From: Clostridia bacterium
GTDB taxonomy: Bacteria > Bacillota > Thermoanaerobacteria > Thermoanaerobacterales > Thermoanaerobacteraceae
Length of the DNA: 64,000 bases
NCBI GenBank assembly: GCA_012840485.1
Contig: DULG01000047.1
Location: forward strand, 1-64,000
Direction: 5' to 3'
The translations under genes and the position numbers were made by a program. Within the stretch, counting starts at the first letter, position 1, and each line of letters begins with the position of its first letter. Positions 16,150 through 32,316 of the stretch are shown in pieces. Under the pieces are notes generated by a model. That model worked only from the letters and a program-made list of their open reading frames with translations. It was not told where the DNA came from and ran no database searches.

Positions 16150-16716
16150 TTAAAACACCTCCAAAAAATTTCTCAATATCTCCTTCCCTTGTTCTGTCAA
16201 AATAGACTCTGGATGAAACTGTAAACCATACACAGGGTATTTTCTATGCCTTACCCCCATAATCACCCCTTCCTCCGTCTGAGCTGTTATTTCCAACTCT
16301 TCAGGTAAAGTCTTTCTATCAATAACCAGCGAATGGTATCTCATTCCTTCAATTGGATTTTTTACATTTTCAAATATTCCTCTGCCATTGTGAAAGATAA
16401 GAGAAGTTTTGCCATGCATTATCCTATCTGCTTTTACAATTTTCGCTCCGTACACGTATCCAATAGCCTGATGTCCAAGACATATTCCTAACATTGGAAC
16501 TTTCTGACCCAAATTTTTAATCAATTCGACGCATATTCCTGCATTTTCCGGCCTCCCCGGTCCTGGCGATAATATAATTTTATTAGGATTTAGTTTTGCA
16601 ACCTCTTCTACTGTTATTTCATCATTTCTAACCACCACGACCTCCTCTTTCATTTCTCCTACGTATTGATAGAGATTGTAGGTGAAAGAATCGTAATTAT
16701 CTATAATGATAATCAT
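16150..16716 (-). CDS. trpG: Anthranilate synthase component II
   Basis: DNYDSFTYNL...LGICLGHQAIG...QFHPESILT. Confidence 0.97.
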   Translation of the reverse strand: MIIIIDNYDSFTYNLYQYVGEMKEEVVVVRNDEITVEEVAKLNPNKIILSPGPGRPENAGICVELIKNLGQKVPMLGICLGHQAIGYVYGAKIVKADRIMHGKTSLIFHNGRGIFENVKNPIEGMRYHSLVIDRKTLPEELEITAQTEEGVIMGVRHRKYPVYGLQFHPESILTEQGKEILRNFLEVF

Positions 16717-18140
16717 TAAAGAACCTCCTTAAGTGCCATTACTTTATTTAAAGTCTCCTGATATTCCATCTCAGGAATTGAGTCATACACAATACCTGCT
16801 CCTGCTTGAAGATAAGCAGTATTTTCTTTTATGAGAATAGTCCTTATTGCTATGCACATATCCATATTGCCGTTATAGGAAAAATAGCCAATAGCCCCTG
16901 CGTAAAAGGACCTTTTCACATTTTCTAATTCCTCAATTATTTCCATTGCTCTTATCTTTGGCGCTCCAGAAACTGTGCCCGCAGGAAGACAAGCTATAAG
17001 GGCATCAAAAGCGGTAAATCCTTTTTTTAATTTTCCAGAAACAGTTGATACAATGTGCATTACATGAGAGTAAAAATCCACCTCCATAAAGCGCTCCACT
17101 TTAACACTCCCAAATTCACTGACTTTTCCAATGTCGTTTCTCCCTAAGTCCACCAGCATAACATGTTCTGCCCTTTCTTTCTCATCCTTTAAAAGTTCCC
17201 CTTTAAGTCTTAAATCTTCTTTTTCATCTTTCCCTCTTTGTCTTGTGCCTGCAATAGGATTTGTGGTAACTTTCTCTCCAAAAACACTCACAAGGCTCTC
17301 AGGAGAAGAACCCAAAAGCTTAAAATCTCCAAAGTCGATATAGAAAAGATAGGGAGATGGATTCTTTGAACGCAGCCTTCTGTAAATCTCAAAAGGATCT
17401 GAATTTGTGTTTGCCTTTAGCCTCTGGGATAACACCACTTGAAATATATCTCCCTTTTCAATGTATTCTTTGGCTTTTTCAACAATTTGACAAAACTCCT
17501 CTTTTGTAAAGTTGTAGCTTATTTCTTTTTCCTCCTGATGGGGAAGGTCATGAAACTCCATTTTATTTTTTATCTCATTTAAAAGGTCATTAATCTTCTG
17601 CAAAACTTCTTCGTATTCGACATTGTCATCAGAAAATGCGTTGTACACAATATATAATTTGTGCTTAAAATGGTCATAGCAGATGAAGCTTTTGTAAAAC
17701 ATCAAATATACATCCGGTATATTTATTTCGTCTGGATTTTTTTGTGGCAATTTTTCATAAAGCCTTATAGCATCATAAACCACATATCCTACTGATCCTC
17801 CTGTAAAAGGAATGTTAAGCCCTAATGGGTTATAATTAATCTGCAGAAAGTTTTTTACCTCTTCCAGTGCTAAACCTCTTTTATTCGATTCTTCTTCTGT
17901 GATAATTTTTATATCCCTTCCATAGCTTAAAACTGACAAATAAGGGTCCTTTCCTATAAAAGAATATCTACCCCAGTGACTTCCTCCATTTGCACTTTCC
18001 AATAAAAATTTGTGTTTACCAGAAAGACTATAAAAAATGTTTATTGGCGTGATTTCATCCCCATTTACTTCCTCATATACTGGAAATGAATATCCCATTT
18101 TTTTATAAGTATAAAAATCTTCTTTAGAAATATTTACCAC
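16716..18140 (-). CDS. trpE: Anthranilate synthase component I
   Basis: Chorismate-binding motifs ([30 protein letters not shown]); GTG start at 18140 preceded by AGGAGGTG. The listed ORF (to 18206) runs into the T-box terminator. Confidence 0.95.
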
Positions 18141-18161
18141 TTTTATCACCTCCTGAAAATT

Positions 18162-18475
18162 AAAAAAGTCACTCCGCCCATTGGGGCGAAGTGACCGCGG
18201 TGCCACCCAATTTGTCCTGTATTATCAAAAAAAGCATTTCACCAAAAGGGCGAAATGCTCGCTTATGCCACCTTTTTTAACACAGGACCACTCTTCCGGG
18301 TACGGAGATTCCTCGATACCCTGTCTTTTTAACGGTAGACCACCGGAGACTGCTACTTAAAGTTCACAGCTCACCTCACGGGCCCATTCAATACCAGCTA
18401 CAGTACCCGGCTCCCACCCTCCCGAGCTCGCTTTGACTAAAGGCTGATATCTACTCTTCCCGGTCATAGGTTTTT
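18162..18475 (-). promoter_or_regulatory. T-box leader, Trp-specific, upstream of trpE
   Basis: GGGTGGCACCGCGG T-box motif; Stem I AG-box GAGTAGATATCAGCC; specifier loop GAA-TGG-G (UGG = Trp at 18384-18386); terminator GTCACTTCGCCC/GGGCGGAGTGAC + T6. Confidence 0.95.
18227..18278 (-). promoter_or_regulatory. Second (upstream) T-box antiterminator/terminator-like module inside the trpE leader
   Basis: AAAAAAGGTGGCATAAGCGAGCATTTCGCCCTTTTGGTGAAATGCTTTTTTT aligns end to end with the canonical 3' module at 18162-18213, including UGGCA, a competing 11 bp stem and a U tract. Confidence 0.75.
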
Positions 18476-18503
18476 CTTTCATTTATAAATTATATTAATT
18501 TTA

Positions 18504-18532
18504 ATTCTATAACGCATTAAATTTTTTGTCAA
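18504..18532 (-). promoter_or_regulatory. Sigma-A-type promoter of the trp operon
   Basis: TTGACA-N17-TAGAAT. Confidence 0.85.
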
Positions 18533-18557
18533 TATATTTTTATGCACTTAAAAAAAT

Positions 18558-18848
18558 TTATACGTAATACTTTTTTATCTTCTCATCAATTGTGACTCCT
18601 TCAGGCTTGTAGTCAATTTTTATAACAGAGATAACTCTACTAGCACCCTCTTTTACACAAATCTCCTGTGCTTTTTTTACTATATCCAAAAGTATATCTA
18701 ATTCTCCTTCCATTGTAGTCTCCATTGGAGCCACAATATACTTTATACCAGTACTTTTTATATATTTTATGACTCTATCCACAATTGGATACACTTTTTC
18801 TTCTGGCACTAAAGGCAATACCTGTAAGCTCAAATTCACGATAGGCAT
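18558..18848 (-). CDS. MTH1187/DUF77 family thiamine-binding-like protein
   Basis: 96 aa, VNLSLQVLPLVPEEKVYPIVDRVIKYIKSTGIKYIVAPMETTMEGE. Confidence 0.85.
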   Translation of the reverse strand: MPIVNLSLQVLPLVPEEKVYPIVDRVIKYIKSTGIKYIVAPMETTMEGELDILLDIVKKAQEICVKEGASRVISVIKIDYKPEGVTIDEKIKKYYV

Positions 18849-29220: not shown

Positions 29221-29246
29221 AAAAGGGGAAAAATCCCCTTTTTAAA
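29221..29246 (-). terminator. Terminator at the ileS / mtaD junction
   Basis: AAAAAGGGGATTTTTCCCCTTTTT hairpin. Confidence 0.8.
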
Positions 29247-32061
29247 CTTGTGTTTGCTGCTCAATGTGGGAAGCACATCTTGCACAAATAGTTGGATGTT
29301 CTTTTATAGTTCCTACTGTTTCACTGTACATCCAGCAGCGTTCACATTTTTCACCTGGTGCATGAGTTACAAGGACTTTCAACTTATAATCTTCACTTTC
29401 ATATACATTTTGAGGAACGGACTCTTCTGGCTGATGCAGCACAACTTTTGAAACTATGAATACATATTCTAGGTCATTAAATTCTTTGAAGAAATCATAA
29501 AGCTCCCTAGAAGGATAAATATCCACTTGTGCCTCTAAAGAGTGACCTATCTTTTTGTCAGTTCTGGCTATTTCAAGAGCCTTAGAAACATCTTTTCTTA
29601 TGTCAAAAAGTTTTTCCCATTTTTCTATTATATAAGGATTGTTGTATTTTTCTTCAACTTGAGGCCAATCAGCTAACTGTACACTCTCAAAATTGTTTTG
29701 GTTGTCATGCTTCATATATGACCATATTTCTTCTGAAGTAAATGTAAGCACTGGTGCTATCAACCTTACAAGAGTGTCTAAAATAATGTAAAGTGTCGTT
29801 TGAGCTGCTCTTCTCTCTTTAGAAGCAGCAGGATAAGTGTACAATCTGTCTTTTAAAATGTCCAGGTAAAGGCTACTCATATCTACTACACAGAAGGTAT
29901 GAACCAGATGGAGAAAATCGTAATACTCATATTTATCAAAAGCCTCTGTAAGCTCTTTAACTACTCTGTTAAGCCTATATAAAGCCCATTTGTCTATTTC
30001 TAAAAGTTCTTTGTATGGGATCATATCCTTATCAGGATCGAAGTCATAAAGATTGCTCAATAAAAACTTACTAGTGTTGCGTATTTTTCTATAGGCTTCT
30101 GTCATTTGTTTTAAAATCTCTTGTGAAATTCTCATGTCTGAAGTAAAATCTGCTGATACAGTCCAAAGCCTCAAAATATCTGCTCCATATTCTTTAATTA
30201 CATCAGCTGGGTCAATACCATTTCCTAAAGACTTTGACATCTTTCTTCCTTCACCGTCAACCACAAAGCCGTGAGTCAATACATTTTTATAAGGTGCTTT
30301 TCCCCGTGTTGCAACAGATGTCAAAAGTGAAGACTGGAACCATCCTCTGTGCTGGTCCGAACCTTCTAAATAAAGTTCTGCAGGCCATTTTAAGTCAGGA
30401 TGAGTTTCCAAAACAGCTGCATGGCTAGAACCAGAGTCAAACCACACATCCATTATATCTGTCTCTTTCTTGAACTTCGTAGAACCACATTCGCAAGTAA
30501 TCCCCTTTGGCAATATCTCCTCAGCTGACATTTTAAACCATGCGTCTGAACCCTTTTGCCTAAAAAGTTCTTTCACCACATTTATTGTTTCATCATTTAT
30601 AAGAGGTTTGCCACAATTTTCACAGTAAAAGATAGGAATTGGTACCCCCCATACTCTCTGCCTTGAAATACACCAGTCTCTTCTATCTTTCACCATATTG
30701 GTTATGCGCTCTTCGCCCCATGCAGGATACCAATTAACTTCTTTAATAGCTTTTAGTGCCTCTTCTCTAAATCCCTCCACAGAAGCAAACCATTGTTCTG
30801 TAGCTCTGAAAATTATAGGGCTTTTGCATCTCCAACAGTGGGGATAAGAGTGAGTTATATGGCCTTCGGCTAACAAAGCATTAGCTTTTTTTAGATCTTC
30901 TTTTATGACCTTGTTTGCATCTTGATAGTAGAGACCAGCATATCCCGGCGCTTCCTCTGTAAAATAACCTTTGTCATCTACAGGATTTAAAACCTCAAGC
31001 CCATATTCTTGCCCTACCAAAAAGTCTTCTTCGCCATGACCTGGAGCTGTGTGAACACAACCAGTACCAGCTTCTAATGTTACGTGCTCACCTAAAATTA
31101 TTACAGAATCCCTATCATACAACGGATGAGTAGCTTTCATTCCTTCTAAATCTTTCCCTTTAAATACAGCAATTATTTCATAGTCTCCAAGATGAGCATC
31201 TTTTTTTACATTATCCAACATATCCTTTGCCATTATATAAATTTCATTCCCAAACTTTGCAAGAGCGTAGTCAAACTCCGGATTTAAAGCAATAGCAAGG
31301 TTAGCTGGAATAGTCCATGTCGTAGTTGTCCATATCACAAAATATATGTTATCTAAATCATCAACAATCCCTTTAAATTTTCTTAAATCATCTCTCACTC
31401 TAAATTTTACGTAGATAGAATCAGAAGTCTCATCAAAATATTCAATCTCTGCCTCCGCCAAAGCTGTCTCACAACTAGGGCACCAATACACCGGCTTTAA
31501 CCCTTTATATATATATCCTTTCTTTGCCATTTCACCAAATACTTCTATCTGTTTAGCTTCATACTCAGAGTTTAAAGTGAGATAAGGATTATGCCAATCT
31601 CCTCTTACTCCCAATCTTTTAAATTGTGCCTTTTGTTTTTCAATCTGTGAAAAAACAAAATCTCTACAGACTTTTCTAAATTCTATAGGACTTACTTCAT
31701 GCCTTTTTATATCCAAAGTTTTTATAGCCTGCTGCTCAATAGGAAGACCATGAGTATCCCATCCTGGCACAAAAGGTGCATCATATCCCTTCATCGTCTT
31801 GTATTTTACCACTATATCCTTTAATACCTTATTCATAGCAGTTCCAATGTGGATATCTCCATTGGCATAGGGAGGTCCATCGTGTAAAATATACTTTTCC
31901 TTACCCCTGTTTTTCTCCAAGGTTTTATGGTAAATATCTATCTCTTCCCATTTTTTTAGTATTTCTGGCTCTCTTGCTGGTAAATTGGCTTTCATTGGAA
32001 AATCCGTTCTTGGCAAATTAAGTGTTTTATTGTAATCCACTGTCACTACCTCCTCTTTCAA
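29242..32061 (-). CDS. ileS: Isoleucyl-tRNA synthetase
   Basis: [23 protein letters not shown] (HIGH) and [12 protein letters not shown] (KMSKS); C-terminal Cys4 zinc site. Confidence 0.98.
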
Positions 32062-32079: not shown

Positions 32080-32316
32080 AAAGAAAACTTCTCGTCAGGG
32101 ACGAGAAGTTCGCGGTACCACCCTACTTATTAAGACAAAGCATAGCTTTGCCTTAATCCCTCATTTGAGATAACGGAAAGCCGGCTCAGCTTACTGTAGT
32201 TCAGCCTGCAGCTCCGAGGTGATTTCCAGTAGAAACGAACTTATTGGCTTGCACCTACCGCCAACTCTCTGAAAGCCGCTTCCACTTACTCTTCCCCATC
32301 ATAGCTTTTAACAATA
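32080..32316 (-). promoter_or_regulatory. T-box leader, Ile-specific, upstream of ileS
   Basis: GGGTGGTACCGCG motif (32111-32124), specifier GGAA-ATC-ACC (AUC = Ile, 32221-32223), terminator ACTTCTCGTC/GACGAGAAGT + T-rich tail. Confidence 0.97.

Follow-up and report, generated by a model that had tools for sequence, protein, structure and literature searches.

A candidate partially tandem tryptophan T-box leader with two antiterminator/terminator modules behind a single specifier upstream of trpE

Locus and anatomy of the trpE leader

The window, that is, the whole stretch of 64,000 nucleotides analysed here, carries on its minus strand at 18476-18162 a tryptophan (Trp) T-box leader (RF00230) upstream of trpE, the first gene of a trpE-G-D-C-F-B-A cluster. 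The match to the covariance model (18476-18179) covers the full model length with 115.1 bits, against a gathering score of 93 (Table 1), and on sequence grounds the leader is a T-box by each feature tested. The specifier UGG (18386-18384) fits the pathway, standing upstream of trpEGDCFBA, and in relatives the gene behind the leader is trpE or trpB-like. As the initial annotation had described, Stem I and its specifier are present only once; one Rfam hit covers both modules of the leader, and no second complete Stem I/specifier unit was found in it. A fully tandem T-box was thus rejected.

Table 1. Features of the trpE leader in the window (positions of the whole stretch)
Feature	Positions	Strand	Basis
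trp leader promoter, TTGACA-N17-TAGAAT	18504..18532	-	TTGACA and -10 region kept in most aligned relatives
T-box leader RF00230	18179..18476	-	full-length model match, 115.1 bits
Specifier UGG (Trp), Stem I specifier loop (GAAUGGGCC)	18384..18386	-	Rfam match; conserved in relatives
Stem IIA/B (F-box), CCGUUA	18330..18335	-	Rfam match and alignment of relatives
Enclosing helix, 5' strand GUCCUGUGUUA	18278..18288	-	Rfam Stem III position; covariation P<=5e-5
Antiterminator 1 helix A1, 5' strand AAAAGG	18271..18276	-	A1 core Watson-Crick in 52/52
T-box 1 UGGC, complementary to tRNA-Trp 3' GCCA	18267..18270	-	comparison and tRNA genes
Antiterminator 1 helix A2, hairpin GCGA/UCGC	18250..18262	-	pairs 18262-18259 with 18253-18250
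Antiterminator 1 helix A1, 3' strand CCUUUU (also terminator 1 apex)	18244..18249	-	sequence and folding
Terminator 1 hairpin, 12 pairs; U7 run 18233-18227	18232..18260	-	terminator scan, folding
Enclosing helix, 3' strand UAAUACAGGAC	18214..18224	-	Rfam, permutation test, fold
Antiterminator 2, UUGGG-UGGCACC-GCG...CGC-CCCAA; T-box 2 UGGC at 18205-18202	18181..18210	-	sequence, Rfam
Terminator 2 hairpin, 13 pairs (stem 18196-18167), with U6	18162..18196	-	terminator scan
trpE, GTG start; AGGAGG at 18154-18149	16716..18140	-	TrpE matches downstream of related leaders

Two antiterminator/terminator modules lie in series behind the one UGG, the upstream one (module 1, 18276-18227) nested within the Stem III loop and the downstream one (module 2, 18210-18162) with the canonical UUGGG-UGGCACC-GCG. 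The initial annotation had proposed two modules of the same layout, and they lie on the minus strand where it placed them; both of their terminators were recovered in a neutral scan of 18100-18600, which found three sites against 0.2 on average in shuffled sequences, the third terminator-like site being the A2 hairpin. Antiterminator and terminator are mutually exclusive in both modules, as judged from the sequence, the energies of module 1 and the terminator scan. Terminator 1 (T1) has a predicted fold energy of about -20 kcal/mol at 37 C, against about -8 kcal/mol for antiterminator 1 (AT1) without tRNA, and at 65 C the order is unchanged (T1 -7.9, AT1 -1.6).

The upstream antiterminator was described earlier with the helices A1 (AAAAGG/CCUUUU) and A2 (GCGA/UCGC), which stand, and with a bulge of 5 nt, which is in fact 8 nt long (UGGCAUAA) and begins with UGGC. 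Module 2 has the bulge UGGCACC, while in module 1 the ACC of the canonical UGGNACC is missing (UGGCAAA or UGGCUA in relatives), so that AT1 may be weak. The complementarity of both UGGC motifs to a GCCA end agrees with the tRNA-Trp(CCA) genes of the window's own genome and of six other genomes, all of which end in GCCA. The helix said to enclose the upstream module is an exact 11-bp pairing of 18288-18278 with 18224-18214; its place in the Rfam alignment is that of Stem III, and the minimum-free-energy fold predicted for the leader contains it.

Conservation and variation among related leaders

In 61 related genomes, BLAST with the whole leader as query recovered 23 trpE leaders: 10 from the window's genus, 10 from the rest of the family, two from another family of the order and one from elsewhere in the phylum. 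Both modules are present in every one of them, and a chance duplication was rejected on this ground. The pattern AGGTGGC-N-GGGTGGCACC matched 20 of 398 genomes of the phylum and its reverse only one; this AGGTGGC-containing pattern supplied many of the matches, and that subset is therefore biased. When two T-box motifs around a hairpin and U-run were sought in the 398 genomes with the base after UGG left free, 23 matches were obtained (one in the reversed control), and this base was C in 23/23 for module 1 and in 22/23 for module 2, as the G-CCA end of tRNA-Trp requires. Trp T-boxes were also sought by the specifier and F-box alone, which avoids selection for module 1, in genomes some of which had been chosen because earlier patterns matched them. 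Among all distinct leaders at that stage, UGGC and a U5 run occurred between the F-box and module 2 in 50, UGGC with U4 in one (L084) and neither feature in nine; a U5 run without UGGC was found in the Stem III region of none of the distinct Trp leaders, including those from the specifier/F-box searches.

Altogether, of 61 distinct Trp T-box leaders, which represent about 20 genera, 52 have module 1, and the proposal of two sequential modules behind one Trp specifier is thus supported by comparison. The A1 core is Watson-Crick in 52/52, with three pair types (AGG:CCU in 44, GGG:CCC in seven and GGA:UCC in one), and all 52 have a T1 hairpin of 10-15 pairs with a U-run. The presence of UGGC in 52/52 was set by the search pattern of that count, and its independent tests are the whole-leader similarity set, the free-base search and the pooled tally of distinct leaders. 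The nine leaders without module 1 have a short Stem III, such as the GAGG-GAAA-CCUC hairpin of L115, with neither UGGC nor U-run.

Within module 1, the sequence of T1, the spacers and A2 vary, while UGGC, the A1 complementarity and the U-run stay. Between the sister species carrying L148 and L147 (G256 and G182, one genus), A1 changes from GGG:CCC to GGA:UCC, a compensatory exchange with UGGC kept. A2 measures 7-8 bp in g2, the second genus of the family, and 4 bp in the window; it is short or absent in trpB-like leaders, most of which lack it, and was lost in two species of the window's genus (L020 and L021), which still keep UGGC and a Watson-Crick A1.

Helices were tested by permutation between lineages without a covariance model, the T-box 1 region being misaligned between genera by MAFFT. 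The enclosing helix co-varies: none of 20,000 permutations of its 3' strands between lineages reached the observed complementarity, and the outward extension of A1 gave P of about 0.01 in the same test. The permutation unit was the lineage, with leaders of the same lineage averaged, and since genera share history these values are not strict probabilities.

A further element lies just 3' of the T1 U-run, where most lineages have GUUACC, GUCACC, GAUACC, CCAC or similar. GGUGGC is the best complemented of all its own permutations in this stretch and beats 300/300 shuffles. In folds through the Stem III 3' strand, most of the leaders that bear the element have it paired with the GGUGGC of module 1, and Stem III, T-box 1 and T1 then form one long arm. 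The predicted cost of opening the UGGC of module 1, UGGC(1), is 3-10 kcal/mol in 14/14 folded leaders outside the window's genus and just 0-1.2 kcal/mol within it; the exact GGUGGC complement after T1 is absent in the window's genus, where an A-run/U-run pairing is found instead.

The partially tandem Trp leader also precedes, in several other families, a TrpB2-like gene with about 33% identity to TrpB (L065, L066, L068, L072, L073, L077, L079-L082, L084 and L106), and some genomes (G404 and G057) have both trpE and trpB-like copies of the leader. L106 (G057:C1:573510-573580) has UGGC in module 1 and UGGU in module 2, the only mixed pair seen; the tRNA-Trp of its genome ends in GCCA. L121 contains an additional hairpin-forming insertion (GUCAUCCUGAAGGCUUUGCCUGAAGGAUC) that follows terminator 1 and precedes the Stem III 3' strand. 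The trpE leaders L074 and L075 have the specifier region UUGAUGGGCC instead of UUGAAUGGGCC and an extra GGGCGGC stretch before module 2. In G001, from the window's genus, a group II intron (RF02001, RF01998, RF00029) directly follows terminator 2 of the trpE T-box, so that about 1.9 kb lies between leader and trpE (L019 from about 1864 on; L041 as far as about 1502).

Proposed mechanism and alternative readings

The leader is probably, with a probability of about 0.8, a partially tandem Trp T-box as proposed, in which one Stem I/Stem II tRNA sensor serves two expression platforms in series. RNA polymerase would make module 1 first. If uncharged tRNA-Trp is bound to Stem I, its GCCA end would pair with UGGC(1), stabilise A1 (with A2 where present) and block terminator 1; otherwise T1 would outcompete AT1 and transcription would stop. 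The 3' strand of the enclosing helix would be made only after T1 has been passed, and the Stem III helix might then close around module 1, loop it out and set module 2 beside Stem I and Stem II. The tRNA acceptor end would be read a second time at UGGC(2), where terminator 2 and antiterminator 2 repeat the decision. For two terminators in series, leak would be multiplied down and uncharged tRNA would be needed at two moments, with less leak and a steeper response as the expected effect. While the anatomy, conservation, covariation, tRNA match and fold energies are shown above, we infer two termination products, a handover of the same tRNA and the steepness and, like the initial annotation, a tighter off state with the tRNA checked twice.

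The reading given earlier for the enclosing helix, that it loops module 1 out and brings Stem I close to module 2, is strengthened by the covariation of the helix and by the T-box 1 complement found in most other lineages. In these lineages, the RNA after T1 may pair with T-box 1, displace the tRNA end from checkpoint 1 and hand it to checkpoint 2. The complement thus suggests a relay that would close checkpoint 1 and free the tRNA acceptor end for checkpoint 2. This relay, in which one bound tRNA-Trp would be read twice per transcription pass, with the reset element closing checkpoint 1, is put forward tentatively, at a little under even odds. It is weakest in the window leader, because the T-box 1 complement is absent in its genus; the fold models support looping-out there but not an active sequestration of UGGC(1). 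The relay, if true, would let RNA alone check the charging of a tRNA twice, at separate times.

One alternative to a doubled platform is an ordinary long Stem III, of which the upstream hairpin would be the tip, with no separate role for the U-run or UGGC. The enclosing helix does lie at the Rfam Stem III position, and the complete region folds stably into a long Stem III with T1 at its tip. However, where the same searches returned leaders with an ordinary Stem III, the hairpin is short and has neither U-run nor UGGC, T1 scores as an intrinsic terminator, and UGGC and the A1 complementarity persist while T1 and the spacers change. An upstream hairpin varying freely without UGGC had been named as the sign of an ordinary Stem III, and the opposite was found in the related leaders; this explanation is most unlikely. 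Module 1 might instead be a decaying duplicate, with T1 as a partial, tRNA-independent terminator that lowers basal transcription. Such decay would agree with the loss of the bulge ACC from module 1, of A2 from L020 and L021, and with the short or absent A2 of trpB-like leaders, but the retention of UGGC together with a Watson-Crick A1 in 52/52 leaders from about 20 genera, including L020 and L021 themselves, makes it improbable.

Two serial gates without any handover are harder to set aside. Each gate would sample tRNA independently, by rebinding or through a second tRNA, and the extended Stem III would serve for packing. Once Stem III has closed, UGGC(1) is left unpaired in the window's genus, and there would thus be no need to eject the tRNA end; against this, the sequence after T1 complements GGUGGC beyond chance across lineages. 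Independent gating is a serious possibility that falls somewhat short of probable.

Relation to known T-box systems

The window leader shares with the canonical transcriptional T-box (RF00230) the Stem I with its specifier, Stem IIA/B, the Stem III position, UGGC and a competing terminator, and differs from it by a second antiterminator/terminator inserted into the Stem III loop. In trp operons, fully tandem T-boxes with a separate Stem I for each unit are common (PMC12452182, PMC2494555). These also place two tRNA-Trp-responsive terminators serially before the trp genes, as predicted for the window leader, but they have two Stem I elements, whereas the window leader has one and repeats just the expression platform. 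Partially tandem T-boxes, in which part of the T-box is repeated, were mentioned in a 2020 review with modes of action described as unknown (PMC7583486). They are apparently of the same kind of architecture, a likeness by description, as the review gives no sequence or structure for comparison. On comparative grounds, the window leader appears to be a well-supported variant of this known partially tandem T-box.

The present analysis adds the nesting in Stem III and the post-T1 complement of T-box 1. Two older comparative T-box papers are likely to list partial duplications and may include the trpE leader of the window or its relatives. The comparative set gives the question of how partially tandem T-boxes act (PMC7583486) a concrete, testable structure, specifying the bases that must hold (UGGC in both boxes and A1) and the helix that would reposition the sensor (Stem III). 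Mutating the T-box 1 complement should tell a relay from two independent gates, and the natural variants with and without this complement, and with and without A2, constitute ready-made controls.

The window contains a second T-box at 32094-32311 on the minus strand, an ordinary single one scoring 128.9 bits. Its specifier is apparently AUC (Ile), and the ORF downstream of it (29242-32061) resembles an isoleucyl-tRNA synthetase.
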